Source: Deltaproteobacteria bacterium
GTDB lineage: Bacteria; Myxococcota; Myxococcia; Myxococcales; 40CM-4-68-19
Direction: 5' to 3'
Assembly (NCBI GenBank): GCA_025350525.1
Contig: JANXXR010000628.1
Coordinates: 1 to 35,238, forward strand
Length of the DNA: 35,238 bases
Shown: piece by piece, positions 2,650-23,875 of the stretch
How positions within the stretch are numbered: the first letter of the stretch is position 1
Layout: every line of letters starts with the position of its first letter
Program-made: the position numbers and the translations under genes
The notes under the pieces: model-generated
Database searches by the model: none
What the model saw: only the letters and a program-made list of their open reading frames with translations
What the model was told of the DNA's origin: nothing

Positions 2650-3024
2650 ATGGCGTCCCTGCGCACGCTCGTCTTTTTCGCCGCGAAAGATTCGCTGGAA
2701 GATCCCGACCCGGTCCGCAATGCCTTTTCCTTCGCGCTCACGGCGGCGAAGTCGGGTTTGCCCGCAGAAGTCCGCCTCGCCGGCGGGGCGCTCCAGGCCC
2801 TCCATCAGGAAAAAGTTCCCGCTGGCGTGAAGGGCGACCGGCTGCGCAAAGCGCTGCTCGATGCAACGGCCGCGGGCCTGCGCGTCACGCTTTGACCGGG
2901 CAGCATCGGGAAGGCGGAGGTCTCCGCCGAAGAGATGAAAGCGGTGAACGCAGAGCCGCTCGAGCTGGGCAAGATCCTGACCCGCGTCTCCGAAGGCACC
3001 GCCGAGCTGATCTACCTCGGGTGA
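2650..3024 (+). CDS. DsrE-like protein with in-frame TGA at 2893-2895, candidate selenoprotein
   Basis: ATG preceded by aaaggag; MASLRTLVFFAAKDSLEDPDPVRNAFSFALTAAKSGLPAEVRLAGGALQALHQEKVPAGVKGDRLRKALLDATAAGLRVTL[TGA]PGSIGKAEVSAEEMKAVNAEPLELGKILTRVSEGTAELIYLG*; frame continuous on both sides; DsrE/F-like layout with a Cys expected at the TGA position. Confidence 0.75.
2913..2928 (+). promoter_or_regulatory. Candidate bacterial SECIS hairpin (DsrE-like gene)
   Basis: GGCGG-AGGTCT-CCGCC (or GGCGGA-GGTC-TCCGCC); loop G 24-25 nt after TGA; AGGUCU loop as recalled for E. coli fdhF SECIS. Confidence 0.65.
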
Positions 3025-3031
3025 TGCGGAC

Positions 3032-3985
3032 GTGACGGCGGGCGGCATCCTGCGCCGGTTCGCGAGTCTGATTCCCGTCTGGCTGGGCGTCTCCGCGCTC
3101 GCCTTTGCGCTGGGCACGCTCGCGCCAGGGGATGCGGCAGAGATGCTGCTGCAGCGGCGCACCGGCGAGCCGCCCACGCAACAGGCTGTCTTGCAGATGC
3201 GCCACCAGCTCGGCCTCGATGCGCCGGTGCCGGTGCGCTACCTGCGCTGGCTGGGCGCGGCGCTGCGGGGCGATCTCGGGACCTCACTGCGCAGCGGCTC
3301 GCCCGTGATCGAAGATCTCTCCGGCAGGTTCCCCGCGACGCTGGAGCTTTCCCTCGCGGCGCTGCTGCTGGGATTGTGTGTCGCGCTGCCCTTGGGAATC
3401 GGCGCCGCCCGGCGTCGCGGCTCGATCGTCGATCACGGCGCGCGCACGTTCGCCATCGTGGGCGCATCGATGCCGAGCTTTCTCTCCGGATACCTCCTCA
3501 TCCTCATCTTCGCGGTGGGCCTGCACGCTTTGCCGGTCGCGGGCCGCGGCGGCCTTGCGCACCTGATCCTTCCCTCGATCACGCTGGCGCTGGGCTTTGC
3601 CGCGGCGTTGACGCGCCTGACCCGCGCGGCCCTGCTCGAAGAGCTCGGCCAGGACTACGTGCGCACCGCCCGCGCCAAAGGTCTCTCGGAGCGCGTGGTC
3701 GTGCTGCGGCACGCGCTGCGCATCGCGCTGGTGCCGGTCTTGACCTTCGCCGCGACGCGGTTCGGGCACCTGCTCGCTGGCGCCGCAATCGTCGAGGCCG
3801 TCTTCGCGTGGCCCGGAATCGGAAAGCATATCGTCGACTCCATCTATGATCGCGACTATCCCGCCATCCAGGGCTTCGTCCTCTTCATGGGCACCGTCTT
3901 CGTGCTCCTCAACCTCGCCGTGGATCTCGCCTATCGCGCGATCGATCCGCGCGTCGGGCAGCGGGAGGACAGATGGGCGAGCTGA
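3032..3985 (+). CDS. ABC transporter permease, DppB/NikB type
   Basis: BPD_transp_1: LGQDYVRTARAKGLSERVVVLRHALRIALVPVLTF; multiple TMs. Confidence 0.88.
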   Translation: MTAGGILRRFASLIPVWLGVSALAFALGTLAPGDAAEMLLQRRTGEPPTQQAVLQMRHQLGLDAPVPVRYLRWLGAALRGDLGTSLRSGSPVIEDLSGRFPATLELSLAALLLGLCVALPLGIGAARRRGSIVDHGARTFAIVGASMPSFLSGYLLILIFAVGLHALPVAGRGGLAHLILPSITLALGFAAALTRLTRAALLEELGQDYVRTARAKGLSERVVVLRHALRIALVPVLTFAATRFGHLLAGAAIVEAVFAWPGIGKHIVDSIYDRDYPAIQGFVLFMGTVFVLLNLAVDLAYRAIDPRVGQREDRWAS

Positions 3986-4833
3986 CCGCCGCAGTGCTGG
4001 CGCCGCGCGATCACCTGGCGCGACGCCTGTCGCGCGATCCGGTCGTCCTCGGCGGCGCCTGTATCGTCGCGCTCTTCGTCCTGCTGGCTCTTGGGGCTCC
4101 ACTGCTCGCGCCGCACGATCCATCCGCAATCGATCCCGTCCACCGGCTGCAGGGGCCTTCGCTGCAGGCGCTGCTGGGCACGGACGCGCTCGGGCGCGAC
4201 CTCTTCAGCCGCGTCATCTTCGGTGCCCGCTGGTCCCTGGGGGCGTCGGCGCTCACCACGGGGCTGGTCCTTCTTCTCGGCATCGCCGTCGGCGTTGCTG
4301 CTGGGTACCGCGGTGGCCCGGTCGACGCAGTGCTGATGCGCATCGTCGACGCGTTCCTTGCCTTTCCTTCCCTGCTGCTTGCGCTCGCCATCGTCGGAAC
4401 CCTGGGGCCGGGCGTCTTCAATGCGGTCCTGGCCTTGACCGTCTCGGGCTGGGCGACCTACGCCCGCCTGGTGCGGGGCCTCGTGCTCACCCTGCGCGAG
4501 CGCCCGTTCATCGAAGCCGCCCGCGCCGTAGGCGGGACGGAAGCGCACATTGTCCTGCGCCATGTGCTTCCCAACATCCTCGCGCCAGTGGCCGTACTGG
4601 CGACGCTGGAGCTGGGCGAAGTGCTTCTCGCGCTCTCTGCGCTCAGCTTCCTGGGCCTCGGTGCGCAGCCGCCCGCGTCAGAGTGGGGCGCCATGCTCAA
4701 CGACGCCCGCTCGTATTTTTTCATTGCGCCGCGCCTGCTGTTCGCTCCGGGCGCAGCCATTACCCTTGCAGTCGTCGGGCTCAACCTGCTCGGCGACGGG
4801 CTGCGCGATGCCTTCGACCCGCGGCTTCAATGA
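3973..4833 (+). CDS. ABC transporter permease, DppC/NikC type
   Basis: LLGTDALGRDLFSRVIFGARWSL, ERPFIEAARAVGGTEAHIVLRHVLPNILAP. Confidence 0.9.
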   Translation: MGELTAAVLAPRDHLARRLSRDPVVLGGACIVALFVLLALGAPLLAPHDPSAIDPVHRLQGPSLQALLGTDALGRDLFSRVIFGARWSLGASALTTGLVLLLGIAVGVAAGYRGGPVDAVLMRIVDAFLAFPSLLLALAIVGTLGPGVFNAVLALTVSGWATYARLVRGLVLTLRERPFIEAARAVGGTEAHIVLRHVLPNILAPVAVLATLELGEVLLALSALSFLGLGAQPPASEWGAMLNDARSYFFIAPRLLFAPGAAITLAVVGLNLLGDGLRDAFDPRLQ

Positions 4834-6438: not shown

Positions 6439-6522
6439 AGCCGCGGCCGGTCTGCAACGGCGCGAGTGGACAACTTCACCCGCCCGGCCTAGCGTGCGGC
6501 CCCCTCGACAAGGTGGTTACCG

Positions 6523-8823
6523 ATGACTGGCTTGCGGTGCGCTGCGACCTTTCTGGTGGTTTCCCTTGGCTTTTCGACCGTTGCTGCCGGGCCGGCCCAG
6601 GCGCAACCGGCCTCCTCCATTTCTGGATCGGTGACCGACAGCGGCGGAGCTCCCATCCCCGGCGCCCGGGTCGAGTTGCTCGACGCGGCCGGCAACTCTG
6701 CCGCGATGCAGACGACGAGCGAGGCGGGGAGCTACCAGCTGACTGCGTCGCCTCCGGGCCACTACCAGCTGTCGGCAACCTTGCAGGGGTACAGGCCGGT
6801 CAAGGCCCCGATCGACCTGCAGGACCGCCCGGTGGTCCGGAATCTAATCTTGAAGACCACCGAGCTGACGGAGACCATCGTGGTCTCCGGATCGCGGTCG
6901 GCCACCAAGGTCAAGGACGTGCCTGCCGCCATCACGGTGGTCTCCGGCGAGGAGGTGCAGCTCGACCGCAGGGCTCTCAGCCTGGAGGAGTCGCTCAAGT
7001 TCGTTCCCGGCGTCCGCGTGGAGGACGAGCTCGGCTCCGCGGGCCGCACCCGCATCATCATCCGCGGCACGGGCACGCGCGCGAACAGCCCCGCCGGCTC
7101 GGGCATCCGCGGCATCAAGATCCTGGTCGATGGCATCCCGAAGAACAATGCCGGCGGCTCGGCGCAGGATCTCACCAACATCGATCTCGAGGCCGTCGAT
7201 CACATCGAGGTCCTGCGCGGCCCCTCCTCGGCGCTCTATGGGAACCAGTCCGGCGGCGTGGTGAACATCATCACCCAGGAGGGCCAGCCTGCGACCTTCG
7301 CCGAGTACCGCGAGACGGTGGGCGCCTACGGCCTCTTCCGCGAGCACGCCAAGGTCGGCGGCGAGACCGGCAACCTGAACTACTTCTTCAGCGCCTTCCG
7401 CACCGACCAGAGCGGATACCGGCAGAACTCCACCTTCAGCAACACCGGCTTTCACAGCAAGTTCCGGTTGACGGTGGACGATCGGTCGACATTGACGACG
7501 GTGGTGGGCTTTGACCGCAACGATGAGCGGTCGCCGGGTCCGCTCACGCAGGCCCGCTTCGACGCGGACCCGTCGCAGGCAGACCCGACCTTTCTTGCCA
7601 ACGGCGTCCGCGCGGTCACCGACGAACTGCGGCTCGGCGCCATCTACCAGCGGCAGATCCTGGATCACAGCTCGCTGGAGTTCACCGGCTATTACCTCCC
7701 GCGGCACCTCGGACCTTTCCAGCAGATCGGCGTGCGCATCCCGCAGGACTTCATGAACCGCGGCGCGGGCGTGCGCGTGCTCGTCGGCGAGCCGATCGGC
7801 ACCTTCGGCAACCGCCTCACGGTCGGCACCGAGTTCCAGGACACGCCCATCACCACCGGCACCTTCAACAGCGTCACCGGCGCCGCGCTGGCGGAGACGG
7901 AAGAGCACGCCACCACCTTCGGCGCGTACCTTCTCGAGGAGCTCAGCCTGCTTCCCGATCTGACGTTGAGCGGCGCCGGTCGCGTGGACTGGGTGCACTA
8001 CACCTCGGAGAACCTCACCAAGGCCGCCGGACAGGCGGGCCGGCTCTACAAGAAGTTCACCCCCCGGGTTGCGCTCACCTTCTCCCCGCTGCGCTCGCTC
8101 GCGATGTACGCGAGCTTCAGCCAGGGCTTCGAGGCGCCCATCATCGGCGAGCTGCGCACGCTGCCCGGCGGCGCCTTCGGTTTTAACAGCGCGCTCAATC
8201 CGCAGACCTCCAACAACTACGAAGTCGGCGCCCGCGGGTCGGTCAACGATGGCCGGCTGGACTTCGAGGTCGCGGCGTTCCGGCAGGATGTCCACGACTT
8301 GATCAGCCCGATCGGTCTCTCTCCCAACAACTCCTTCCAGAACGTTGGGCAGGTGCAAGAGTACGGGCTCGAGGTGGGAGCGCACCTGCACCTTTTGCGC
8401 GGGCTGACCACGGGGCTCGCGTACACCTACTCCGATTTCAAGTTCCAGGACTTCGTCAGCGGCACCACCGTCTACTCGGGAAAAAAGCTTCCGGGCGTTC
8501 CCGATCACATGTGGGCCGGAGAGCTGCGCTACCGACACGAGTCCGGCCTGCATGCAGCCGCCGAAGTGCAGGCGGCGAGCCCGATCTACGCGGACAACGC
8601 CAACAGCTTCTCGACGCCGCGGTATACCGTCTTCAACGCCAGCGCGGGCTACGACTACGACCGGGGCAACCTGCGCCTCGAGCCCTTCGTCCTGGTGAAG
8701 AACCTGACCAACCAGAAGTACTCGGAGTTCGCGCTCATCAACGACACCGCCAAGCGGTTCTACAACCCGCTGCCTGGCACCAGCGTCTATGGCGGCCTGA
8801 AGGTCGCCTACCAGGGACTCTAG
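6523..8823 (+). CDS. TonB-dependent outer-membrane receptor with N-terminal carboxypeptidase-regulatory-like domain
   Basis: Signal peptide; SGSVTDSGGAPIPGARVELL; plug GIKILVDGIPKNNAGGSAQDLTNIDLEAVDHIEVLRGPSSALYGNQSGGVVNIIT; C-terminal beta-barrel. Confidence 0.92.
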   Translation: MTGLRCAATFLVVSLGFSTVAAGPAQAQPASSISGSVTDSGGAPIPGARVELLDAAGNSAAMQTTSEAGSYQLTASPPGHYQLSATLQGYRPVKAPIDLQDRPVVRNLILKTTELTETIVVSGSRSATKVKDVPAAITVVSGEEVQLDRRALSLEESLKFVPGVRVEDELGSAGRTRIIIRGTGTRANSPAGSGIRGIKILVDGIPKNNAGGSAQDLTNIDLEAVDHIEVLRGPSSALYGNQSGGVVNIITQEGQPATFAEYRETVGAYGLFREHAKVGGETGNLNYFFSAFRTDQSGYRQNSTFSNTGFHSKFRLTVDDRSTLTTVVGFDRNDERSPGPLTQARFDADPSQADPTFLANGVRAVTDELRLGAIYQRQILDHSSLEFTGYYLPRHLGPFQQIGVRIPQDFMNRGAGVRVLVGEPIGTFGNRLTVGTEFQDTPITTGTFNSVTGAALAETEEHATTFGAYLLEELSLLPDLTLSGAGRVDWVHYTSENLTKAAGQAGRLYKKFTPRVALTFSPLRSLAMYASFSQGFEAPIIGELRTLPGGAFGFNSALNPQTSNNYEVGARGSVNDGRLDFEVAAFRQDVHDLISPIGLSPNNSFQNVGQVQEYGLEVGAHLHLLRGLTTGLAYTYSDFKFQDFVSGTTVYSGKKLPGVPDHMWAGELRYRHESGLHAAAEVQAASPIYADNANSFSTPRYTVFNASAGYDYDRGNLRLEPFVLVKNLTNQKYSEFALINDTAKRFYNPLPGTSVYGGLKVAYQGL

Positions 8824-9536
8824 GCGAGCGAGCTCGCCAGGTTGGACAGGGCGATCACCGCCGGTGCCGCCGGAGAGGCGTCAAAAGGCGCTGCTCCGGC
8901 AGCATCGGCGGCGCGCAAGACCGGATCGTCAGGGACGACGGTTGGAGCAAGGCTTTCAAAGGCGGTTAGGAGCGCGTCGTCTGCCTGGAAGCGGTTGGCG
9001 ACCAGCACGATTCGTCCGAGCTTCTTGCTCTCGATCATCTCGACCGCGCGGCGCGCGACCTCCAAGGCCTTGACGCTGGGCTCGGCGATCACCAGCAGCA
9101 CGTCGACGTCGCCCGGCTCCATCCGCGTGAGCGTCCCGAGGCCCGCCTCGAAATCGGCCACCACGAATCGTCCTCCGCTTTCCAGCTGCCCGAGCAACTG
9201 CTCAGGTGAGACGCCGCATCAGCCTCAGCCGGGGTTCGGCTTCTCGATCTTGCTGACCACGGCCAGCCGGATCCCGTCCGGACCATCGGCCCCGAAGCGC
9301 GCGAGCAGCTCCGGCGCGGACGGCGCGTGTTCGGCCCCCTCCGCGTCCAGTGCCTGACGCATGCCCGCGAGGCGCTCGGTCGCCTCGGCGCCGAAGCCGA
9401 GCGCGAGGCCAAGGTTTGGATTGGCGTCGCAGTCGAGCGCGATCACCTCATGACCCAGGCGCGCGAGCGTCCTCGCCACGATCGCGGCGGTGGTGGTCTT
9501 GCCCGCACCCCCCTTTCCGACGACACCGATCTTCAT
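8820..9536 (-). CDS. CooC/MinD-type P-loop ATPase with two in-frame TGA codons (U-G-U-C motif), candidate selenoprotein
   Basis: MKIGVVGKGGAGKTTTAAIVARTLARLGHEVIALDCDANPNLGLALGF...KIEKPNPG[TGA]G[TGA]CGVSPEQLLGQLESGGRFVVADFEAGLGTLTR...; one frame from 9536 to 8820 apart from TGA at 9227-9225 and 9221-9219. Confidence 0.8.
9189..9206 (-). promoter_or_regulatory. Candidate SECIS hairpin (CooC-like gene 1)
   Basis: CCTGAGC-AGTT-GCTCGGG, 7-bp stem (one T-G), loop G 21 nt after second TGA and 27 after first. Confidence 0.6.
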
Positions 9537-10273
9537 CTCGACGCTTCCTCTCGCAGGCGTGCGACCAGGTTCACGATGGCGGCCACCGCGGCCGACGAAG
9601 GCGCCGCGTCCAGTGGGGCGACTCCCTTCCGATCAGCGGATGCAACGGCCTCATCGTAGGGCACCTCCGCCCAGAGCGGCAGCTGCAGCTCCGCGGCGAT
9701 GCGGTCTGGCGCGAGCGCCTGCCGGCCTGCGGCCTTGTTGACCACCAGGCCCATGTTGGTCTCGGGCGCGAGCGAACGCAGGCGCCTTGCCGAGATCAGC
9801 GCGGCCCGGGTCGGCTCGACGACCACGGCAATGGTCTGGGCGAACGCCGACCAACCGGCCGAGCTCTGGCGGGTGCCGGCTGCGAAGTCGCCGACCAGTG
9901 TCCATCCGGGTTCGCGGAACTCGTCGAGCACATGGCGAAAGGCGACCGAAGACCCCGGCTTCACGTGACCTGGCAGCTTTCCCAGCTGCAGGAAGCGGAT
10001 GCCGTCGGGACCTCGCAGCGCATGCCGTTCCACCAGCTCTTCGGCGCTGACCGGGTCTCGCATCACCCAGCCCACCTTCTCGCGTCGCTCCGCCAGATCG
10101 GCGGGCAGACCTGCCTCCGCGACGCGGCCGAGCCCGAGCGAGTACGAGAGACCCGGCAAGGTGTCCACGTCGAGAGCAAGCACCCGCTCGCCGGCGCGGG
10201 CGAGAAGGCGCGCCACCGTTCCCGCGATGCTGGATTTCCCGCTGCCGCCCTTTCCGACGAAGGCCACTCGCAT
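9533..10273 (-). CDS. CooC/MinD-type P-loop ATPase, no CxC motif
   Basis: MRVAFVGKGGSGKSSIAGTVARLLARAGERVLALDVDTLPGLSYSLGL; ATGA overlaps with neighbours. Confidence 0.8.
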   Translation of the reverse strand: MRVAFVGKGGSGKSSIAGTVARLLARAGERVLALDVDTLPGLSYSLGLGRVAEAGLPADLAERREKVGWVMRDPVSAEELVERHALRGPDGIRFLQLGKLPGHVKPGSSVAFRHVLDEFREPGWTLVGDFAAGTRQSSAGWSAFAQTIAVVVEPTRAALISARRLRSLAPETNMGLVVNKAAGRQALAPDRIAAELQLPLWAEVPYDEAVASADRKGVAPLDAAPSSAAVAAIVNLVARLREEASR

Positions 10274-11325
10274 CAGCAGATCCGCGGAAGCAGTTCGCCG
10301 TGGGGGGGATCCAGCACGCGGGTGCCGCCGATGACGGTGCGCAGGACGACCAGGTTCGGATGCTCCGCCGTGACGGTCCCGATGCGGACGGCGTCGCGGC
10401 CGAGCGGATGCGCGCGCATGGCGTCGAGCACCGCCGCGGCGTGGCTCGCGCCTACGAACGCGACCAGCTTGCCCTCGTTGGCGACGGTGAGCGGGTCGAG
10501 CCCAAGGATCTCGCAGGCGCCCTTGACCTCGTCGCGCAACGGAATGGAGCCCTCGTCGATCTCCACGCCGACCTTGGAGGCGCGCGCGATCTCGTTCAAG
10601 GTGCTGGCGAGGCCGCCGCGGGTCGGATCCCGCAGGGCGTGGATCTCGCGGCCGGCGACAAGCATCCGCGCGACCAGGCCATTCAGCGGCGCGGTGTCGC
10701 TGACCAGGGTTCCCTGCAGGCCCAGGTCCTGCCGCGCGGCGAGGATGGCCATGCCGTGATCGCCAACGGTTCCCGAGACGATGACCGCATCTCCAGGCCG
10801 GGCCGAGTCCGCCGAGAGGTTGACGCCCGCCGGCACGACGCCGATGCCGGTGGTGGTGACGTATACCTTGTCGCCGCTCCCCTTGCCGACGACCTTGGTG
10901 TCGCCGGTCACCACCGAGACTCCCGCTTCCCTGGCGGCGTCGCGCATCGACTCCACCACGCGGCGGAGATCGTCGATGGCGAGACCCTCTTCGAGGATGA
11001 ACGCCGCGGCGATGTAGAGCGGGCGGGCGCCGCCGACGGCGAGGTCGTTGACCGTTCCGCAGATGGAGAGCCGCCCGATGTCCCCGCCCGGGAAGAACAT
11101 CGGCGTCACCACGTAAGAGTCGGTAGTGAAGGCGACGCGGCCCGGCGGCAATTCCAGCATCGCCTGGTCGCCCAGCCGATTGAGAATGGGGTTTCCAAAG
11201 GCGGGAAGAAACACCGACTCGAGCAGCTGCGAAGACAACTGTCCTCCGCCCCCGTGGCCAAGCAGGACGCGGTCGTTCTTCGTGAACGGCACCGGGCAGG
11301 CCCCGAAGGGCGTCTCAGAGGACAT
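10273..11325 (-). CDS. hypE: Hydrogenase maturation factor HypE
   Basis: LLGHGGGGQLSSQLL, TTDSYVVTPMFFPGGDIGRLSICGTVNDLAVGGARP, C-terminal LPRIC. Confidence 0.95.
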   Translation of the reverse strand: MSSETPFGACPVPFTKNDRVLLGHGGGGQLSSQLLESVFLPAFGNPILNRLGDQAMLELPPGRVAFTTDSYVVTPMFFPGGDIGRLSICGTVNDLAVGGARPLYIAAAFILEEGLAIDDLRRVVESMRDAAREAGVSVVTGDTKVVGKGSGDKVYVTTTGIGVVPAGVNLSADSARPGDAVIVSGTVGDHGMAILAARQDLGLQGTLVSDTAPLNGLVARMLVAGREIHALRDPTRGGLASTLNEIARASKVGVEIDEGSIPLRDEVKGACEILGLDPLTVANEGKLVAFVGASHAAAVLDAMRAHPLGRDAVRIGTVTAEHPNLVVLRTVIGGTRVLDPPHGELLPRIC

Positions 11326-11892
11326 CTTCCTCCCCCAGCGCCACCTGGACCTGATCCCAGAGCAGGTGCAGGAGCAGCGTATGCGCTTCCTGGATCCGGT
11401 GAATGCTGAACGAAGGCACGACGAAGCAGTGCTCGGCAATGTCGACCAGGCGGCCACCGTCGCGCCCAGACAGGGCGATGGTGAGCATATCCATGTCCCG
11501 CGCCTGCTTGAGGCCGCGGGCGACGTTCGCCGCCTGCCCCGAAGTGGAGATGCCCAAGGCGACGTCGCCGGGCCTGCCGAGCAGGCGGACCTGTTCGGAG
11601 AAGATGAGCGTGAAGTCGGCGTCGTTTCCGATGGCGGTTAGAATGGCGACGTCGGCGGCGAGCGAGATGGCGGGAAGAGCGCGCCGCTTTTCCAGGATGG
11701 GGTGCTGAAACTCAACCGCGAGGTGGAGCGCGTCGCAGGCGGAGCCGCCGTTTCCCATCGTCAGGAGCTTGCCGCCGTGGCTGAAGGAGTAAGCCATCTT
11801 CCGCACGCAGGTCTCGAAATTGACCGCATCGCGCGCGATCAGCTCCAACGCGACGCGCGACGACTCGGTGGCCTTGCGCAGGAGGCTCTCCT

Positions 11893-11896
<4 letters not shown>
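11315..11896 (-). CDS. SIS-domain phosphosugar isomerase-like (GmhA-like) protein in hyp operon
   Basis: [40 protein letters not shown]. Confidence 0.85.
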
Positions 11897-12992
<1,096 letters not shown>

Positions 12993-12996
<4 letters not shown>

Positions 12997-13253
12997 CGCT
13001 CGGTTTCCTGTGGACTGTCCAGCTCGTCGAGCTGGCCCATCTCGCGGAACAGCTCGAGAGTCCGCGCGGCCTCTTCCTCATCGACCACGCTGAGCGCCAT
13101 GCCGACGTGCACCAGCACGTAGCTGCCCACCTTCGCTTCGGGGACGTATTCGAGACAGGTGTCGCGCTGGATGCCGCCGAACGCCACCCGCGCCATGCGC
13201 AGGCCCTTGCGGTCGAAGAGCTCGACGACCTTACCGGGAATGGCCAGACACAT
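12993..13253 (-). CDS. hypC: Hydrogenase maturation chaperone HypC
   Basis: [12 protein letters not shown] ... [22 protein letters not shown]. Confidence 0.96.
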
Positions 13254-15432
13254 CGCGCAACCTCCATGCGGCCATCGCCGCCTGTCCGAGCGCGATTCCG
13301 CCGTCGCCTGCGGGTACGCGAAAATGGACCAGAACTTCGAAGCCGCGCTGGACCAGCGCCTCTTTCGTCGAGCGGCTCAGCCGCCGATTCTGAAAGCATC
13401 CGCCTGAAAGAGCCACCACCGACAGTTGCGTGCTGCTGCGGAGTCGCTCGCACAGCTCGCCGATGCCGAGCGCAAGCGCAGCGTGGAACCGCGACGTGAT
13501 CAGAGGCGCCGGGACTCCGCGATCGAGATCGTCGAGAAGGGCGCGCAAGAGCGGCCGGGGATCCAGCTCCAGCAAATCACCATCGATGACGGGCATGGGG
13601 TAGGGGGGCGCATCGCCCTCGCAGATTGCTTCCAGCTCCATGGCTGCCTGGCCCTCGTAGGTGGCGAAGTGACAGACTCCGGCGAGGCTCGCGACAGCAT
13701 CGAACAGCCGCCCAGCGCTGGAGGTCGGAACGCCGCCGAACCCGCTGCGAATCATCGCTTCGACGCTGGCTCGCTCGGTGTGAACCACGCGCGTCGCCGG
13801 CAACTCGGCGGCGAGAAGATGCGAGAGTGCCATGCGCCACGGCGCGCGAACCGCGGAATCGCCACCGGGGAGCGGCACCGGCCGCAGACGTCCCTTGCGC
13901 TCGAAGCCGGCCAGATCCGCGATGAGGAACTCGCCTCCCCAGATGGTCCCGTCGGCGCCGTACCCGGTGCCGTCCCAGGCCACGCCGATGACGCGGTCGC
14001 GGCGGCCATTCTCGGCCAGGCACGATGCGATGTGCGCGTGATGATGTTGCACCGCGATGGCGGGCAGGCCGGTGGCTCGGGCCATTCGGGTGCTGTGGTA
14101 CCCCGGGTGCAGATCGTGCGCGACATACTGGGGCGTCACGCGGAAAAGGCGTTCCAGGTTTCGGCGGGCTTCGGCAAAGAATTGCTGCGCCTCCCACGAC
14201 TCGAGGTCGCCGATGTGCTGGCTGAGGATGGCCGCGCCGCCCGCAGTCAGGCACAGCGTGTTTTTGAGATCTGCGCCGACGGCGAGAATGGGGGGCGAGT
14301 CGAATCCCAGGTTGATGGACTCCGGCACGAAACCGCGCGCCCGGCGAAGCACCTTGCCTCCGCGCATGACGGAATCGTCCATGCGCATGTGGATGTCCCG
14401 GTCGTGCAGGATGAACAGATCGGCGATGTCACCGAGCCGTTCGAGCGCTTCGTCGTTGCGGATGGCGATAGGCTCGTCGGAACGGTTGCCGCTGGTCATC
14501 ACCAGCGGCTGGCGCACCACCAGATGATGCAGCGGAGTGTAGGGCAAAAAGGCGCCCACTTCGTCGAGGCCGGGCGCGATGCCGGACGCAAGCGTGGACC
14601 CGGCCTTCTTCTTGAGCAGCGCAATCGGAGCAGTTGGATGCAGCGATTCGGGGACCAACTCGCGCTCGAGCGAGGGGAGATCCGGGAACATCACCGCGAA
14701 GGGCTTACCGCTGCGGTGCTTCCGCTCCCGCAGCTTGCGCACCGCACTCTCCGACCGCGCGTCGCAGGCGAGGTGGAAGCCCCCGATTCCCTTCAACGCA
14801 ACGATTTTGCCCTCGCGCAGCGCTTCGATGGTCGCGGCAATCGGCTCGCGGTCGCTGCCATGGAGCCATAGGCGCGGTCCGCAGGCCGGGCAGGCGTTGG
14901 GTTGCGCGTGGAAGCGCCGCGAGAGCGGATCTGCATATTCGCTCGCGCAGGCTGGGCACATGCGGAACGAACGCATCGTCGTCTGGCTGCGGTCATAGGG
15001 AACGTCCTCGACGATAGAGTAACGCGGCCCGCAGTCGGTGCAGTTGATGAAGGGATAGCGGAAGCGGCGGTCTTTGGGATTGAGGAACTCCGCAAGATAG
15101 GCGGCGCAGGTGGGTAGATCGGCGGACACGCGCGCGTGAGAAGCGCCCAGCGTCGCGCTGGGGATGATGGAGAAGGTGGCCGCGCCGGCCGGAACCGCGT
15201 CGAGCGTCCGCATCGACTCGATGCTCGCCCGGGAGGGCGGCGAGCTCTTGATCTCGTAAGCGAGGACATCGAGGGAGGCAGCATCGCCCTCGGCGTCCAC
15301 CACCACGCCTTCCGGATCATTCCACACGGCCCCGCGCAGTCCCAGCCTCAGCGCCGTTCGATAAACGAACGGTCGGAAGCCGACGCCCTGCACGACGCCG
15401 CGGATACGAAATATGCGCCGGGCAGGTTCCAT
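13231..15432 (-). CDS. hypF: Carbamoyltransferase HypF
   Basis: Acylphosphatase domain RIRGVVQGVGFRPFVYR; Zn fingers CTDCGPRYS / CPACGPR; VQHHHAHIASCLAENG; start at internal MEPARR. Confidence 0.96.
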   Translation of the reverse strand: MEPARRIFRIRGVVQGVGFRPFVYRTALRLGLRGAVWNDPEGVVVDAEGDAASLDVLAYEIKSSPPSRASIESMRTLDAVPAGAATFSIIPSATLGASHARVSADLPTCAAYLAEFLNPKDRRFRYPFINCTDCGPRYSIVEDVPYDRSQTTMRSFRMCPACASEYADPLSRRFHAQPNACPACGPRLWLHGSDREPIAATIEALREGKIVALKGIGGFHLACDARSESAVRKLRERKHRSGKPFAVMFPDLPSLERELVPESLHPTAPIALLKKKAGSTLASGIAPGLDEVGAFLPYTPLHHLVVRQPLVMTSGNRSDEPIAIRNDEALERLGDIADLFILHDRDIHMRMDDSVMRGGKVLRRARGFVPESINLGFDSPPILAVGADLKNTLCLTAGGAAILSQHIGDLESWEAQQFFAEARRNLERLFRVTPQYVAHDLHPGYHSTRMARATGLPAIAVQHHHAHIASCLAENGRRDRVIGVAWDGTGYGADGTIWGGEFLIADLAGFERKGRLRPVPLPGGDSAVRAPWRMALSHLLAAELPATRVVHTERASVEAMIRSGFGGVPTSSAGRLFDAVASLAGVCHFATYEGQAAMELEAICEGDAPPYPMPVIDGDLLELDPRPLLRALLDDLDRGVPAPLITSRFHAALALGIGELCERLRSSTQLSVVALSGGCFQNRRLSRSTKEALVQRGFEVLVHFRVPAGDGGIALGQAAMAAWRLRDVSGHSR

Positions 15433-15439
15433 GTGCTCC

Positions 15440-16201
15440 TCAAACGAGCAGGCGGTCCGCGATCTCCTGGATGGCACGCACCGCGGGCGACGATGGCGCG
15501 CGGTCCAGTAGCGCCTTTCCTTCGCGATCGGCATCGAGGATCGCGTCGTCGTGCGGCACGGTGCCGAGCAGTTCCAGTCCGCGGCTCTTGCAAAAGGACT
15601 CGATCGCTGCAGCGTCAGCAGCGCTGCGCACCTTGTTCGCGACCGCGTGCACGCGCTTCACTCCGAGCTCACGCGCCAACTCCGCCACGCGTGCGCCGGT
15701 CTCGAGCGATCGGTAATAGGGTTCCAGCACCGTCACCACGGCATCCGCGTACCGCGGCGTTCCCCGGGAAAGATTCTCGAGGCCAGCCTCCATATCGGCG
15801 AGGGCCACGTCCTGCGCGCCGCTGACGATCTCTCCCAGAAGGCCACGCACGGTGGCATGAGCACGGCACATTCAACCCGCCCCGGCGTGCGCGACCTTGC
15901 CCATCACCAGGAGCCGCACGCCGTCCGGAGCGATGGCGCCATACCTTGCCGCGACCTCGGCGGCGGGCATCGACAAGACGGTGATCCGCTTGCCGTCGTC
16001 CGTCGTCCGATCCACCAGCAGATCCCGCGGGACAGGCGAGGGAGTTGCGGCGGCCGAGAGACCAAGGCTCGCGGCAAGGTTCGGATTCGAGTCGGCATCG
16101 ACCGCGAGCACCTGCCGCCCGCGCCGGGCGAAGAGCCGCGCCAAGGTCGCCGTCAGCGTCGTCTTACCGGAACCGCCCTTGCCCGCGATCGCGATCTTCA
16201 T
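15440..16201 (-). CDS. CooC/MinD-type P-loop ATPase with in-frame TGA (U-M-C motif), candidate selenoprotein
   Basis: MKIAIAGKGGSGKTTLTATLARLFARRGRQVLAVDADSNPNLAASLGL...VMGKVAHAGAG[TGA]MCRAHATVRGLLGEIVSGAQDVALADMEAGLENLSRG...; TGA at 15874-15872 at first Cys of the CxC. Confidence 0.82.
15842..15856 (-). promoter_or_regulatory. Candidate SECIS hairpin (CooC-like gene 2)
   Basis: GCCAC-CGTGC-GTGGC, loop G 22 nt after TGA. Confidence 0.55.
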
Positions 16202-16240
16202 GCCTTGGGCGTAGCCCCATGCCAGCAAACGATCAAGCTG

Positions 16241-16284: not shown

Positions 16285-16316
16285 CGTACGGTCGCAATCA
16301 CCAGCGGGGAGGCCAG

Positions 16317-17630
16317 ATGCCTGCTCTTGAAGACGAAGTTCCCAAAGTCGTCGTGGAGACCATCGCTGAGGTCAAACGGCGCCGGCAGACGGCGCCCGCA
16401 GAGCTGAAGAAGCGCCTGCCGCTCGGCCCCCTGAAGACCGTGCACGTCTACTGGCTCGCGGGGATGAGCTGCGACGGCTGCAGCATTGCAGTGACGGGCG
16501 CCACCAATCCGGGCATCGAAGGCTTGCTCGCTGGCGTAGTTCCCGCAATGCCCAAGGTTGTGCTCCAGCACCCCGTCCTCGCCGTGGACGCCGGAGCTGC
16601 GTTCGTGGAGACCTACCGCACTGCCTGGCGCGGCGAGCTTGGCGCCCCCTACGTCGTCGTCTACGAGGGCTCGATCGCCGACGAGCGCATTGCCGCTCGC
16701 ACGGGCGGCTACTTCTCGGCGATGGGGGTGGAGCCGCGCGAAGGCTTCGCGCAGGAGCAGCCCGTTCCGACCGCGGAATGGTTGAGGCGCATGGCTCCGG
16801 GCGCTGCGGCGGTGATCGCGATCGGGACCTGCGCGACCTGGGGCGGGATCCCCGCCGCTGAAGGAAATCCGACCGCCGCGATGAGCGTGATGGATTTCCT
16901 CGGAAAGGACTTCCGCAGCGCCTTCGGGCTGCCGGTGATCAACATCCCCGGCTGCGCGCCGGTGGGCGACAACTTCACCGAGACTGTCTTCGCGGTGCTG
17001 CTCTTCCTGCAAGGTCTGGGTCCGCTGCCTGCCTTCGACGAATTGGGCCGGCCCGCATGGCTCTTCACCGAGACGGTCCACCAAGGCTGTACGCGCGCGG
17101 GATACTACGAGGAAGGAACCTTCGCCAAGCACTATGGTGACGCTGAGTGCCTGGTGGACGTGGGGTGCTGGGGACCGGTGGTCAACTGCAACATCGTCAA
17201 GCGGGGCGCCATCAACCACATGGGCGGCTGCATGAAAGCGGGTGGCATCTGCATCGGCTGCACCATGCCCGGCTTTCCCGACAAGTTTGCTCCCTTCTAC
17301 AAGACGCCCCCGGGTGCGCTCGTCTCCACCACCGCATCGAAGAGCATGGGATTTTTCATCCGGCGCCTGCGGCGCTTGTCGAATCGGGAGACGAACCGTG
17401 AGCGGCGCTGGGATGTCAATGCGGCGGTTCCGAGCGGCTGGGCCAACGTCCAGGCGCAGACCTTGATGGACAAGGCTATTCACTACTTCTACGAGAAGTG
17501 GCAGCAGTTCGGAGCGCGCAAGCAGGGGCGCCGGCCCAGCGAGCAGAAGTGGCTCTGGGGCGGCGATCGTCCCGGAGTGCGCAGCGACTATCACGACGAC
17601 AGCGCGACCAAGGAGGATCGGAATGGTTGA
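16317..17630 (+). CDS. [NiFe]-hydrogenase small subunit, no Tat signal
   Basis: GMSCDGCSIAVTGATNPGIEGLL, GTCATWGGIPAAEGNPT, GCAPVGDN, VHQGCTRAGYYEEGTFA, CIGCTMPGFPDKFAPF. Confidence 0.95.
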   Translation: MPALEDEVPKVVVETIAEVKRRRQTAPAELKKRLPLGPLKTVHVYWLAGMSCDGCSIAVTGATNPGIEGLLAGVVPAMPKVVLQHPVLAVDAGAAFVETYRTAWRGELGAPYVVVYEGSIADERIAARTGGYFSAMGVEPREGFAQEQPVPTAEWLRRMAPGAAAVIAIGTCATWGGIPAAEGNPTAAMSVMDFLGKDFRSAFGLPVINIPGCAPVGDNFTETVFAVLLFLQGLGPLPAFDELGRPAWLFTETVHQGCTRAGYYEEGTFAKHYGDAECLVDVGCWGPVVNCNIVKRGAINHMGGCMKAGGICIGCTMPGFPDKFAPFYKTPPGALVSTTASKSMGFFIRRLRRLSNRETNRERRWDVNAAVPSGWANVQAQTLMDKAIHYFYEKWQQFGARKQGRRPSEQKWLWGGDRPGVRSDYHDDSATKEDRNG

Positions 17631-17916
17631 CCTCGGCGCCTGGGGATTGTGGATGGCGGTGGCCGCGGTCGTGGTCGTCATCGCGGCCGCACTGTTGATC
17701 GCCATCTGGCTGACTGCGCGCGCCATCTACGGGCACGCCGTGCGCGCGCTGAAGGCCGCCGAAGCGATTCGCGTCAACACGCTTCCCATCTGGGATCTGC
17801 AGACGACCAACGAAGTGGCCGAAGAGATCCTCACCGCGGTGCAGGCCATCGAGAGCAAAGGCGGCAAGCTCGCCCACGCCCTGCAGCAGCGGGAGAAGCC
17901 GGAGGCGCGGCCATGA
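17623..17916 (+). CDS. Single-TM mini-protein 1 between hydrogenase subunits
   Basis: N-terminal TM (WGLWMAVAAVVVVIAAALLIAIWLTARAIY) plus amphipathic C-terminus; overlaps small-subunit stop. Confidence 0.8.
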   Translation: MVDLGAWGLWMAVAAVVVVIAAALLIAIWLTARAIYGHAVRALKAAEAIRVNTLPIWDLQTTNEVAEEILTAVQAIESKGGKLAHALQQREKPEARP

Positions 17917-18221
17917 CCGTCGAGAACGTCTGGTGGCTGACGCTGGGGATCTACCTCGTGGTGGTGGCGGTGGTGGCGGTGCTGCTGACGCTCATCCTGC
18001 TCGAAGCGAAGAAGATCCATGCCGGCGTCAGCGAGATCTGGAACGTGGGCCAGAAGGTCGCCAACAACACCATCCATATCTCGATGCTCGAAAGAACCAA
18101 CCAGCTCGCAGGTCAGATCCTCTCGTCCGCGAAAGGGATCGTCGGCGCTACCGCGCAGATCGGCGGGCACGCGTCGTCCTGCCCGAGTTGCCCGCAGTGC
18201 GTGCTGGGGAGGCGGCGATGA
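17913..18221 (+). CDS. Single-TM mini-protein 2, Cys-rich tail (SSCPSCPQC)
   Basis: MTVENVWWLTLGIYLVVVAVVAVLLTLILLEAKKIHAGVSEIWNVGQKVANN...; ATGA overlap. Confidence 0.8.
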   Translation: MTVENVWWLTLGIYLVVVAVVAVLLTLILLEAKKIHAGVSEIWNVGQKVANNTIHISMLERTNQLAGQILSSAKGIVGATAQIGGHASSCPSCPQCVLGRRR

Positions 18222-18798: not shown

Positions 18799-18801
18799 CC
18801 C

Positions 18802-19065: not shown

Positions 19066-19070
19066 TCCAC

Positions 19071-20963
19071 ATGTGCTTCAAGAATCTGCCGGTCGAGTTC
19101 GACTCCGCCGGCAAAGCTTTTCTCAAGGCCGGCGTCGCCAATCCGTACGAGTGGAAAGGCGCCGTCGGCGCGCCCACCCAATTGACGCACGACAAGATCG
19201 AGACCCTGCTCCGCAAGAACGGGCACATCAAGTCGGTGGACTTCGACCCGGTCACGCGCGTCGCCGGCGCGCTGGCCTTCCACTCGGTGGTCGACTTCAA
19301 GGAGCGCAAGGTCATCGAAGCGCGCTCGATGGCCACGCTCTTCCGCGGCTACGAGGTCATCATGGTGGGCCGCGATCCGCGCGACGCCATCTTCATTACC
19401 AGCCGCGCCTGCGGCGTCTGCGGCGGCGTACACTCGGCGACGGCCGCGATGGCCATCGAGATGGCCATCGGATGCAAGCCGCCGCCGCTCGGCATCCTCG
19501 TCCGCAATCTCTCGCTCGCCTTCGAGTTCCTCTACGATCACCCGCTCCACCTGCACCTGCTCGCAGGCCCCGACTACTCGGCCGCCATCGTCGGCGCCAC
19601 CAATCCGTCGCTGCTCGCACGCGCGAAGAAGACCGAGGCGCGCCACACCGAGTTCCACGGCTACCGCACCATGGGCGATCTGATGGAGGACCTGAACCCG
19701 CTCACCGGCAAGCTGTACCTCGAGGCGCTGCACATGACCCGCGTCGCACGCGAGGCGTACGTGCTCCTCTGCGGCAAGTACCCGCATCCGCAGACGATGG
19801 TTCCGGGAGGAATGAGCACCACCGTCACCCTCACGGTGATGAGCGAAATGGCCACGCGCCTGGTCCAGTTCTTCGACTATGGCAAGAAGGTGGCGCTGAT
19901 CTGGGACGACATCACCGAGTTCTTCTACGAGGCGGATCCCGGCTACAAGAAAGTGGGCACCCGGCGGGCCAGCATGATCGACACCGGCATCTTCGATCAC
20001 CCGGACGGTTACGACGCCACCTATGCCAACGCGGGCCAGACCGGCGAGATGCGCTGGCTGACGCCGGGGGCCATCGTCGACGGCAAGCTGGTCACCACCG
20101 ACATGCACCGGCTCAACATGGGCATCGAAGAGTTCGTCGAGCACTCGTATTACGAGGAATGGGCGGGCAACGGCTCGACCCCGAAGTTCCCCAAGGACGA
20201 GATGGGCAACCCGCTCTCGCCGTGGCACCCGTGGAACAAGATCACCAAGCCGAGGCCGTCCGGACAGAACTGGAAAGAAAAGTATACCTGGGACACCGCA
20301 CCTCGCTGGGACCGCAATTCCATGGAGGCCGGCGCCTATGCGCGGCTGTGGAACACGGCGCTCGCGCAAAAGGCGCCCAAGAGCGACTTCTTCGAGTCCA
20401 CTGGGCATTCGCTGAAAGTGCGCCTGCCCAAAGGCGCGCTGCCCGAGGTGGAGATCGAGTGGAAGGTGCCCACCGATTGGAACGCCTTCGAGCGCAACCG
20501 TGGCCGCGCCTACTGCCTCGCCTACACCACCATGGTCGCCTGGGAGAACTGGCGGCTGGCGATGGAGCGACTCAAGATCGGCGACACCAAGGTCTCGACG
20601 CCATTCGAGATCCCCAAGAAAGGTGAGCACCTCGGCTGCGGATACTGGGGAGCGGGGCGCGGCTATCTCACGCATCACCTGGTCCTCGACCGCGGCGCCG
20701 TGTCGAATTACCAGATCATCACGCCCTCGACCTGGAACGCGTCGCCGACGGATCAATCGGGGCAACCCGGGCCCTACGAAGAGGCGGTGTTGAATACGCC
20801 GCTGCTCGAGGAGACGGACGATCCCAAGCAGTTCAAGGGCATCGACATCCTCCGTGCCCTGCGCAGCTTCGATCCCTGCATGCCCTGCACGACGCACATC
20901 CACTCGGAGGGCGGAGTGATCACGCGTGAGATCAACACCTGCGCGTGCGGCGCGGACGATTGA
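19071..20963 (+). CDS. [NiFe]-hydrogenase large (catalytic) subunit
   Basis: L1 SRACGVCGGVHSATA; L2 SFDPCMPCTTH followed by 21-aa C-terminal peptide IHSEGGVITREINTCACGADD. Confidence 0.96.
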   Translation: MCFKNLPVEFDSAGKAFLKAGVANPYEWKGAVGAPTQLTHDKIETLLRKNGHIKSVDFDPVTRVAGALAFHSVVDFKERKVIEARSMATLFRGYEVIMVGRDPRDAIFITSRACGVCGGVHSATAAMAIEMAIGCKPPPLGILVRNLSLAFEFLYDHPLHLHLLAGPDYSAAIVGATNPSLLARAKKTEARHTEFHGYRTMGDLMEDLNPLTGKLYLEALHMTRVAREAYVLLCGKYPHPQTMVPGGMSTTVTLTVMSEMATRLVQFFDYGKKVALIWDDITEFFYEADPGYKKVGTRRASMIDTGIFDHPDGYDATYANAGQTGEMRWLTPGAIVDGKLVTTDMHRLNMGIEEFVEHSYYEEWAGNGSTPKFPKDEMGNPLSPWHPWNKITKPRPSGQNWKEKYTWDTAPRWDRNSMEAGAYARLWNTALAQKAPKSDFFESTGHSLKVRLPKGALPEVEIEWKVPTDWNAFERNRGRAYCLAYTTMVAWENWRLAMERLKIGDTKVSTPFEIPKKGEHLGCGYWGAGRGYLTHHLVLDRGAVSNYQIITPSTWNASPTDQSGQPGPYEEAVLNTPLLEETDDPKQFKGIDILRALRSFDPCMPCTTHIHSEGGVITREINTCACGADD

Positions 20964-21501
20964 GGTGGGCGTCCTCGTCGGCGGACTCGGATACCGGAAC
21001 CTGAGGGATCACTCCATCGGCATCGCGGTGTCCGACACGCTGATGGAGCGCGGTTGGCCCCAGGGCATTTGTGTCGAGGATGTGAGCTACAACCCGGTCG
21101 CGCTCGTCGAGCACTTGAAGGAGGAGAAATTCGAGCGCGCGGTGATCGTCGCGGCGGTGCAGCGGCCAGGGCGCGTGCCAGGCGAGGTGACCGCCTATCG
21201 CTGGGACGGGAAGCTGCCCTCGGACGAGCTGATCCAGGCGGCGGTGGTGGACGCCGTGACGGGCGTGATCTTCCTCGACAACACCTTGATCGTAACCCGC
21301 CACTTCGGCGGCTTGCCGGAGACGACGGCGGTGGTCGAGATCGAACCCGAGGTGCATGAGTTCGGCGAAAGTTTCAGCGCGGCAGTGGCGGCAACCTTCG
21401 AGACCGTCTGCGAGCTGGTCACCACCCTTGCCGTCGATCCGCAGGCGTTGCTCGCACTGCCGCGGGCGCCGCTGGGAGGGGTTTCGCGTGAGCGAGCCTG
21501 A
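20926..21501 (+). CDS. Hydrogenase maturation protease-like (A31-fold) protein lacking typical catalytic/Ni-binding residues
   Basis: GVLVGGLGYRNLRDHSIGIAVSDTL compared with GFGNELRGDDGFGIAVCQRL in the 22288 protein; real start may be GTG 20965. Confidence 0.6.
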   Translation: MRSTPARAARTIEVGVLVGGLGYRNLRDHSIGIAVSDTLMERGWPQGICVEDVSYNPVALVEHLKEEKFERAVIVAAVQRPGRVPGEVTAYRWDGKLPSDELIQAAVVDAVTGVIFLDNTLIVTRHFGGLPETTAVVEIEPEVHEFGESFSAAVAATFETVCELVTTLAVDPQALLALPRAPLGGVSRERA

Positions 21502-22288
21502 CGTCCTCGAGGAGATCGAACGGCTCATCGCCACGCTGGAGGCGCACCCGGACTCAGGCGTGCGCGACAACCTCAAGGCTCTGCTGCAAGGGATCGACTC
21601 CGTGCACCGGACGGCGCTCGAGAAGTTCGTCGCCGCCATCCAGTCCATGGCCGGCGAGGCTTTCCTGCGGCGCTTGTACGGTGATCCCGCCATCCGCCTG
21701 CTGCTCATGTCGTACGACCTGGTGCCCGTCGATCGCCGGCTCCAGGCCGAGGAGGCGCTGGACCCGGTGCGCGGGCACCTGCATGCTCATGGCATCGATG
21801 TCGAGATCACCGAGGTGGTGGGTGGCGTAGTCTACCTCCGCTTGCACGGCGCAGCCGATCGCGCGGCGGCGAAACGCGACCTCGAAGAGGCGCTGCACGC
21901 CAACTTCATCGGTTTCCAGGAGCTGGTGCTGCGCGACCGCCACGAGGAGAAGAAGGCTCTGGTATCGCTCCGCCGCCCCATTTACAAGCGCGCCCTCTCG
22001 GAGGCTGAGCTGCCGCCTGGTTCCTTCAAGGCCGTGGACCTGGACGATCTGCCGCTCCTCCTCGCGAACGTGTCCGGCGATGTCTATGCGGTGTCCAACC
22101 GCTGCGGATCGTCGCCGCTGCCGTTGCAGTTCGGCGCACTCTCCGGCGCGGAGCTGCGCTGTTCTTTCCATGGATGCGTGTACGACGTCCGCTCCGGCAA
22201 GCGGCTCGACATGGCGGCCGAGGGCATCCGCGTCTTCCCGGTGCGCATCGAGGATGGCGCCGTTCTCGTTGCGCTGGGAGTCTCCTGA
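21488..22288 (+). CDS. NifU-like / Rieske-like two-domain protein (HucE/HhyE-like)
   Basis: VRGHLHAHGIDVEITEVVGGVVYLRLHGAADRAAAKRDLEEAL (NifU-like without CxxC) plus DVYAVSNRCGSSPLPL...ELRCSFHGCVYDVRSGKRL (Rieske-like); GTG start. Confidence 0.75.
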   Translation: MSEPDVLEEIERLIATLEAHPDSGVRDNLKALLQGIDSVHRTALEKFVAAIQSMAGEAFLRRLYGDPAIRLLLMSYDLVPVDRRLQAEEALDPVRGHLHAHGIDVEITEVVGGVVYLRLHGAADRAAAKRDLEEALHANFIGFQELVLRDRHEEKKALVSLRRPIYKRALSEAELPPGSFKAVDLDDLPLLLANVSGDVYAVSNRCGSSPLPLQFGALSGAELRCSFHGCVYDVRSGKRLDMAAEGIRVFPVRIEDGAVLVALGVS

Positions 22289-22737
22289 TGCGCACGCTGG
22301 TTGCCGGCTTCGGAAACGAGCTCCGGGGCGACGATGGCTTCGGCATCGCCGTCTGCCAGCGGCTCAAGGAAAAACCCTGCGAGGGAGTGGAGATCCTCGA
22401 GGTGGGCACCGGCGGCTTGCAGATGGCGCAGGTCCTGATTGCCGGGTACGATCGGCTGATCGTGGTGGACGCCATTGCTCGGGGCGGCGCGGCGGGGCAG
22501 CTTTATGTGCTGGAGGTCGAGGGAGTGGAGCGGGCGACGGAGATTGATCTGCACCTCGCCGTCCCCAAGGCTGCACTGTCCGTCGCGCAAGCGCTGGGCG
22601 TGCTGCCGCGGCAGGTGTTCATGGTGGGTTGTGAGCCCCATGAAGTGGACGAGTTGTGCCTGACCCTGTCGCCAGCCGTCAGCGCCGCGCTGGACCGCGC
22701 GGTGACGCAGGTGATCGAGCTTGCGAGGCGCCCATGA
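22288..22737 (+). CDS. Hydrogenase maturation protease (HupD/HyaD family, A31)
   Basis: MRTLVAGFGNELRGDDGFGIAVCQRL, DRLIVVDAIARGGAAGQLYVLE; start overlaps upstream stop (TGATG). Confidence 0.9.
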   Translation: MRTLVAGFGNELRGDDGFGIAVCQRLKEKPCEGVEILEVGTGGLQMAQVLIAGYDRLIVVDAIARGGAAGQLYVLEVEGVERATEIDLHLAVPKAALSVAQALGVLPRQVFMVGCEPHEVDELCLTLSPAVSAALDRAVTQVIELARRP

Positions 22738-23087
22738 GCAACGACATCGCACAACTCGACGAGATGCTGGAGCTGCTCTTCTGGATGGAAGGCGAGGGGC
22801 TGGAAGCCAGCGCGACGCTCTCGGGCATCGCGCGGTTCCTCGCGCGTCAGGAGGCGGAGGCGGAGGTCATCCTGTCCCGGCTCGTCCAGCGAGGCGACGT
22901 CGGCGATGCCGGAGGCCGGTTCAGCTTGACGGACGTGGGACGCGGTGAGGCCGCGCGACGTTTCGTCGAGGATTTTTCAGGGCTGGTCGGCCAGGCGCAC
23001 GGCGAGTGCAATGATCCGAACTGCGACTGCCGCACGAGCCCGAACGGGGCTGCCGACTGCCATGCCCACGCGCCGGAGACGCCTTGA
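22734..23087 (+). CDS. Winged-helix-like protein with Cys/His-rich C-terminus
   Basis: LSGIARFLARQEAEAEVILSRLVQRGDVGDAGGRFSLTDVGRGEAARRF plus HGECNDPNCDCRTSPNGAADCHAH. Confidence 0.7.
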   Translation: MSNDIAQLDEMLELLFWMEGEGLEASATLSGIARFLARQEAEAEVILSRLVQRGDVGDAGGRFSLTDVGRGEAARRFVEDFSGLVGQAHGECNDPNCDCRTSPNGAADCHAHAPETP

Positions 23088-23119
23088 CTTCCTTGATTGC
23101 GCGCGTCTACGGTCCGCCC

Positions 23120-23422
23120 ATGCGACGCAACATTTTCATCGGCATGGGAGCGCTCGCGGCTCTGGGAAGCGCCTTCGTGGCCACCACTCACTGCTGCGAG
23201 AGGCTGAACTTCCTCGCCGCGATGGGGCTGCTCCAGCCCGGTTGAATCGGGCTCGCCCCGTATAAGCCGCAGTTCGCGGCTGCGAGTTTGCTTTCGCTAG
23301 GGGCGACGCTGTATCTGGCGCTCTTCGCTCCCGGCACAGGAGCCACCGCCACCGGCGCGCGGACCGCCGCGCTCACCATGCTGGCCGTGGCGTGCGGCAT
23401 GCTGATCTTCGTGATTCCCTAG
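23120..23422 (+). CDS. Small MerT-like membrane protein with in-frame TGA at 23243-23245, candidate selenoprotein
   Basis: MRRNIFIGMGALAALGSAFVATTHCCERLNFLAAMGLLQPG[TGA]IGLAPYKPQFAAASLLSLGATLYLALFAPGTGATATGARTAALTMLAVACGMLIFVIP*. Confidence 0.6.
23265..23281 (+). promoter_or_regulatory. Candidate SECIS hairpin (MerT-like gene)
   Basis: AGCCGC-AGTTC-GCGGCT, loop G 27 nt after TGA. Confidence 0.5.
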
Positions 23423-23434
23423 AGGGAGATTCGA

Positions 23435-23875
23435 ATGGATCGCAGAGTCACGATGCTCGTCGTCCTCTCCTCGGCAATGCTGGTGGTGGGCGGCGGCGCG
23501 CTGGTGATGTCGCGCCGGACCCAGTCCGCCAGTACGGCGTCCTCCCCCACTGCTTCGAAATTGCCCAAGGGCACGGTGCCGCTGCCGGCCGCCGTGGAGG
23601 CTGACTTCACCGGCAAGGCCATTTGCGGCGCCTGCAGCTGGGGCATTGGCCAGGAATGCAACACCATGCTCTACGACAAGGAAAATCATCACGTCGCGGC
23701 TGTGCTCCCCAACGACAAGCTCGCCGAGCTGCAGAAGCTGACAGGCACTTGAGCGAGCGGGCGCGCGACGGTCGTCGCGCACGGGTCGCTGACAGAGTTC
23801 AAGGGCATGAACTACATCCTGCTCGCGTCCTTCACGACGGACGCGAAGCCCAAGGACACGAGCAGCATGAGGTGA
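23435..23875 (+). CDS. Membrane-anchored small protein with in-frame TGA at 23750-23752, candidate selenoprotein
   Basis: ...GKAICGACSWGIGQECNTMLYDKENHHVAAVLPNDKLAELQKLTGT[TGA]ASGRATVVAHGSLTEFKGMNYILLASFTTDAKPKDTSSMR*; post-TGA part resembles a beta-rich domain end. Confidence 0.65.
23763..23780 (+). promoter_or_regulatory. Candidate SECIS hairpin (23435 gene)
   Basis: GCGCGAC-GGTC-GTCGCGC perfect 7-bp stem, loop G 18-19 nt after TGA. Confidence 0.6.

Follow-up and report, generated by a model that had tools for sequence, protein, structure and literature searches.

We found that a 35,238-nucleotide contig of a Deltaproteobacteria bacterium of the Myxococcales (JANXXR010000628.1; hereafter the window) carries what we read as an acquired gene set for a group 1h [NiFe]-hydrogenase and nickel uptake whose nickel-handling proteins contain selenocysteine (Sec), a reading that we hold at a probability of about 85%. 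The window is contig C450 of the host genome G000 (5.27 Mb in 728 contigs); below, L-numbers denote loci and G-numbers denote genomes in our searches of relatives. Sequence comparison gives good support to Sec incorporation at the in-frame TGA codons of the island. This support is strong for two CooC-type ATPases, here named CooC-A and CooC-B, and for a DsrE-like protein, and moderate for a secreted DUF6370-like protein.

An earlier note on this DNA had pointed to five genes holding six in-frame TGAs and no other internal stop. All five read-through frames are indeed there, with zero internal TAA or TAG codons: the DsrE-like gene (2650..3024, + strand), with U82 at 2893-2895; CooC-A (8820..9536, −), with U104 and U106 at 9225-9227 and 9219-9221; CooC-B (15440..16201, −), with U110 at 15872-15874; a small membrane-protein gene (23120..23422, +), with U42 at 23243-23245; and the secreted-protein gene (23435..23875, +), with U106 at 23750-23752. 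The terminal stop is also TGA in three of the five (P0001, P0003 and P0005). What is new relative to that note is the identification of the ATPases and of Sec on their metal ligands.

CooC-B matches CooC1, a MinD/SIMIBI-type nickel-insertion ATPase of Carboxydothermus hydrogenoformans (PDB 3kje-3kji), over its full length (E 3e-34 to 3kje), and its motif Sec110-Met-Cys112 aligns with Cys112 and Cys114 of CooC1, respectively. CooC-A aligns with CooC1 at E 1.5e-8 and places Sec at both positions, as Sec104-Gly-Sec106. In CooC1, Cys112 and Cys114 hold a Zn or Ni ion between two subunits (PMC6006190). Membership in the CooC family follows from full-length homology and from the deviant Walker A motif, GKGGxGKT as in CooC1, and the CxC motif at positions 112/114 is present with Sec for Cys, as UMC in CooC-B and UGU in CooC-A. 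A paralogue, CooC3 (9533..10273, −), shares an ATGA overlap with CooC-A and has no CxC motif; the metal motif is absent in every relative of CooC3, which there too adjoins CooC-A, and CooC3 is possibly the heterodimer partner of CooC-A.

Orthologues settle the Sec reading for three of the five genes. A large-subunit scan of 84,980 species genomes yielded 24 loci, among which CooC-B stands beside the large subunit with a TGA at the same codon in L053, L055, L057, L062, L065, L067, L071, L072 and L073 and with Cys at that codon in L060, L061, L069 and L074; the TGA-bearing loci span Acidobacteriota, Gemmatimonadota, Thermomicrobiota and Actinomycetota. Another 13 genomes with a CooC-B TGA, in one case in a partial gene, and several Cys-bearing ones came from a survey of 397 genomes in the same phylum as G207, bringing the totals to 23 genomes with TGA, the window included, and about a dozen with Cys. 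For CooC-A, the second ligand is TGA in eight copies and Cys in two, and the first ligand is also TGA in two; the relatives usually read CPU, with CLU once, UPU in L067 and CQC or CYC in L137, next to the UGU of the island. Hence, in every true CooC-B or CooC-A gene that we saw, the column holds TGA or Cys and nothing else, which bears out the earlier expectation of Cys at such positions. The stretches ahead of and behind the TGA show similar identity (e.g., 59/49, 52/54 and 56/56), indicating that the part behind the TGA is under constraint and is conserved about as well as the part ahead of it. Upon placing 68 CooC proteins on a tree, we counted eight transitions between Sec and non-Sec; well-supported branches force at least six of these. 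Two divergent CooC copies (L133:9659, +; L136:10438, −) read UTG: their first ligand is Sec, and another residue stands in for the second Cys. In an all-against-all scan, extra in-frame TGAs were mostly antisense or out-of-frame noise over hydrogenase genes, and only CooC, DsrE and a small CPGUPRC protein held up.

The host is equipped to read UGA as Sec. Its genome encodes selA (476 bits), selB (309 bits) and selD (352 bits), as well as a tRNA-Sec with anticodon UCA (73 bits; G000:C449:3303-3397, L001), all above curated cut-offs, so that the complete machinery presupposed by the earlier note is present. The host selD has an in-frame TGA of its own (SHGSGUACK) followed by a hairpin, and this predicted seleno-SelD is a positive control. 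The tRNA-Sec gene adjoins open reading frames that resemble the urease accessory genes ureF and ureG, judged by reading and by a weak match to the HypB model.

A hairpin of the bacterial Sec insertion sequence (bSECIS) type follows every one of the six TGAs, as had been proposed. The published bSECIS model describes a 3-9 nt loop with G in its first two positions on a 4-16 bp stem, located 16-37 nt from the UGA, with a minimum free energy (MFE) of −7.5 or below (PMC13188914). Four genes agree with the model in every respect and CooC-B in all except energy: its stem, at −6.4 kcal/mol, misses the −7.5 mark, and the 53-nt stretch has a different MFE fold. The hairpins are GGCGGA-GGUC-UCCGCC after Sec82 (2913..2928, +; z −2.46), that of CooC-A with an invariant AGUU loop (9189..9206, −), GCCAC-CGUGC-GUGGC of CooC-B (15842..15856, −), AGCCGC-AGUUC-GCGGCU of the membrane gene (23265..23281, +; z −2.34) and GCGCGAC-GGUC-GUCGCGC of the secreted-protein gene (23763..23780, +). 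Against background, 5-18% of ordinary codons match the hairpin energies of four genes and 3% that of the fifth, and the five hairpins combine to a Fisher p of ~0.001. Taken alone, they are moderate evidence for Sec, since such hairpins are common in the GC-rich DNA here. Among eight Sec orthologues of CooC-B, compensatory changes on both sides of the stem occur in three of six pairs, and shifting the partner strand abolished the pairing; L053 and L073 keep the hairpin at the same place in another register. The CooC-A hairpin and its AGUU loop are kept in 8/8 Sec genes and are gone from the two Cys copies of L137. In the Cys orthologues L060, L069, L074, L061 and L137, a hairpin is either missing or weaker.

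The smaller candidates add to this picture to different degrees. The DsrE-like gene lies between the nikA-type and nikB-type genes of a nickel ABC transporter, and its match to Pfam DsrE (PF02635) reaches E 1.4e-4, with a score of 22.5 bits where the cut-off is 22.7. Orthologues in L125 and L126 (39-41% identity) carry TGA at the same codon, a hairpin and a place beside nikABCDE, and the remote homologues L083 and L089 have Cys in the Sec82 column; further DsrE matches, in L087, L088, L091 and L093, look like spurious frames. The secreted protein remotely matches the DUF6370 protein L078, a conserved Cys of which aligns with Sec106. Both proteins would be Sec variants of thiol proteins engaged in nickel uptake or metal sensing. 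A MerT-like name for the membrane protein was discarded, as the likeness was by eye only and no PF02411 match appeared at E 5. Queried against plasmids, three of the small proteins matched nothing. A chimera of the three likewise gave no match in 396 genomes from the Acidobacteria phylum to which L054 belongs, with few candidates scored in each genome. Finally, a small membrane protein of the hydrogenase locus with CPSCPQC (17913..18221, +) is present in its Cys form, and its relatives in L124, L125 and L126 (e.g., L126:7587, −) read CPGUPxC, with TGA replacing the second Cys; by sequence, the CPGUPRC protein of these three loci is a further selenoprotein candidate.

We propose that CooC-A and CooC-B form the core of the system, with Sec replacing one or both of the Ni(Zn)-binding cysteines of CooC1. 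The dimer would open and close at the expense of ATP, thereby loading Ni on the selenolate/thiolate site and then releasing it to the precursor of the hydrogenase large subunit. The CooC ATPases would in this way take over the job of HypB, perhaps together with the small protein HypX (22734..23087, +) in that of HypA. HypX, to which no family could be assigned, has a conserved C-terminal HGECxxDxxCxC...CH tail and adjoins CooC-B in many relatives; it is a possible nickel-binding partner. Neither hypA nor hypB was recognised in the window, the hyp operon included, and HypB scored above the cut-off in only 5 of 23 such hydrogenase genomes, missing from the other 18. Because HypB is this rare and the hyp operon has none, we see about even odds that CooC-B stands in for it. 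A wider reading, in which Ni insertion into group 1h [NiFe]-hydrogenases depends on selenium and not on HypA or HypB (with CooC-B plus HypX, and CooC-A/CooC3, as Sec-ligated nickel-transfer ATPases), the accessory genes swap Cys and Sec repeatedly and H2 oxidation by these soil bacteria needs selenium, is tentative and would fall slightly short of even odds.

One rival explains the TGAs as nonsense mutations, or as errors of assembly, in imported genes undergoing decay. The island does appear to be imported and the assembly is fragmented; however, 23 genomes, each assembled separately, have TGA at the same position, the column holds only TGA or Cys, the five frames contain no TAA or TAG, identity downstream of the TGA equals about that upstream, and the hairpins covary. 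We regard this rival as highly improbable, and the orthologues refute decay for CooC-A, CooC-B and the DsrE-like gene, in line with the earlier argument that independent nonsense decays were unlikely. The CooC-like ATPases might instead mature another metal site, such as an Fe-S cluster, or carbon monoxide dehydrogenase (CODH), with the hydrogenase neighbourhood incidental: CooC is known from CODH, and the Rhodospirillum rubrum CooC does not mature the hydrogenase of that organism (PMC6006190). Yet in most relatives that show both, CooC-B is part of the hyp/hydrogenase locus, no CODH gene was recognised in the window and the CooC clade is separate from the CODH type, which makes such a target unlikely. 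A stronger competitor accepts Sec at the UGA and ordinary Ni delivery by CooC, and lets Sec protect the CooC metal site from oxidation, by being oxidised reversibly in these aerobic soil bacteria, rather than improve Ni binding. Group 1h enzymes are O2-tolerant, which favours this view, as does the finding that relatives carry working Cys versions. The Sec of [NiFeSe] hydrogenases has likewise been proposed to guard Ni against over-oxidation (PMC13188914). Against it stands that Sec substitutes the ligand itself, and sequence does not separate the two readings; we consider oxidation protection a plausible account, if somewhat less probable than its converse.

Several observations weigh against our preferred reading of a Sec-bearing nickel set. 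Sec insertion has its support at the level of sequence, and the nickel binding and nickel role of CooC-A and CooC-B are predicted from homology. Moreover, G000 has a hypB on another contig (C242) that could serve this hydrogenase too. The membrane protein 23120-23422 had no homologue in any search, plasmids and viral contigs included, and its Sec42 is therefore supported by frame, hairpin and neighbourhood. In the large and conserved Sec clade L094-L101/L103, the hairpin loop starts 15 nt after the UGA, one base outside the model. SelB scored above the cut-off in 24 of the 30 genomes with a Sec-CooC, and the remaining six, all draft assemblies, have no full-scoring SelB: G212 has a fragment, G997, G928 and G955 give no match at E 1e-50, and the failures in G1003 and G879 are without explanation. 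For G997, G928 and G955 the gap points to incomplete assemblies, because most complete genomes give at least an elongation factor match at that E-value. Among hydrogenase genomes in which all CooC copies found have Cys, G201, G202, G214 and G991 lack SelB, but G816 combines a Cys CooC with SelB. Genomes whose only CooC is the CODH-type Cys form frequently encode SelB as well; SelB is hence needed for Sec-CooC but not diagnostic of it.

The published record appears to hold no CooC/MinD-type selenoprotein. None is among the 119 prokaryotic families of the May 2026 catalogue, which does include DsrE-like, MerT and CobW-related P-loop selenoproteins, and NCBIfam 20 has no specific model for a seleno-CooC. 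Likewise, the open-access literature yielded neither a seleno-CooC nor a link of Sec to group 1h enzymes, an absence that is not proof. These findings suggest that seleno-CooC is a selenoprotein family outside published catalogues that recurs in several phyla. Compared to CooC1, the proteins described here carry Sec at one or both ligands and have hypCDEF and a [NiFe]-hydrogenase, not CODH, as their genomic neighbours. HypB, the Ni GTPase, presumably shares NTP-driven nickel handling for the same enzyme class, but it belongs to another GTPase family and is missing from this operon. The CobW-related selenoprotein (NF041053, 2026 catalogue) is likewise a Sec-bearing P-loop NTPase of the metallochaperone type, but it is a G3E GTPase with UxxC, whereas CooC/MinD-type proteins carry UxC/CxU. 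The DsrE-like protein shares its domain (PF02635) with an established Sec family; the catalogue motif is UxxC, whereas here it is UPGS beside a nickel transporter, with UPRC in L125 and L126. In [NiFeSe] hydrogenases, too, Sec belongs to a Ni site, but in the catalytic subunit, whereas here the maturation proteins carry Sec and the catalytic subunit has none. The seleno-CooC proteins would thus add a selenoprotein family with Sec at the metal-ligand site of a nickel-insertion-type ATPase, link selenium supply with soil H2 oxidation, and raise the question of what Sec gains over Cys at a transient Ni site, be it tighter or faster Ni exchange or protection from oxidation. As annotation pipelines split these genes, many soil genomes seem to lack part of the Ni maturation pathway for group 1h hydrogenases.

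The island is bounded by two identical 50-bp direct repeats of a tRNA-Gly 3′ end (117..166 and 25220..25269, both +), which enclose about 25 kb (25.1 kb) encoding a nickel-type ABC transporter, a TonB receptor, a hyp operon and the [NiFe]-hydrogenase. It was probably imported by horizontal transfer, because none of 146 other genomes searched in the host's class, Myxococcia, has a comparable CooC relative. The repeat pair resembles the attL/attR sites of an integrated island, and no integrase was recognised between the repeats. On the minus strand, the genes run in the order CooC-B, HypF, HypC, HypD, GmhA-like, HypE, CooC3 and CooC-A, with hypF at 13231..15440 (TIGR00143, 728 bits), hypC at 12993..13253, hypD at 11893..12996 (TIGR00075, 488 bits) and hypE at 10273..11277 (TIGR02124, 460 bits); the GmhA-like phosphoheptose isomerase gene (11315..11896) inside this operon is present in related loci too. 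The plus strand carries the hydrogenase small subunit (16317..17630) and the large subunit (19071..20963), which has no in-frame TGA and is of the group 1h type, its nearest solved enzyme being the actinobacterial-type HofG (5aa5, E 7e-155; the next solved enzyme reaches 1e-53). Genes for a maturation-protease-like protein, a NifU/Rieske protein and a HyaD-type protease follow (20926..22737, +). An HxlR-type regulator gene (23882..24226, −; Pfam HxlR, E 8.6e-14), whose product has a Cys-rich N-terminus (CGC...CYC), stands divergent from the two small candidate selenoprotein genes, and the regulator may sense metal or redox state. Directly beyond the island lies an AbiEii/AbiEi type IV toxin-antitoxin pair (25530-26902), and the open reading frames at 27012-27978 look, on reading, like the remnant of an IS-type transposase or integrase.

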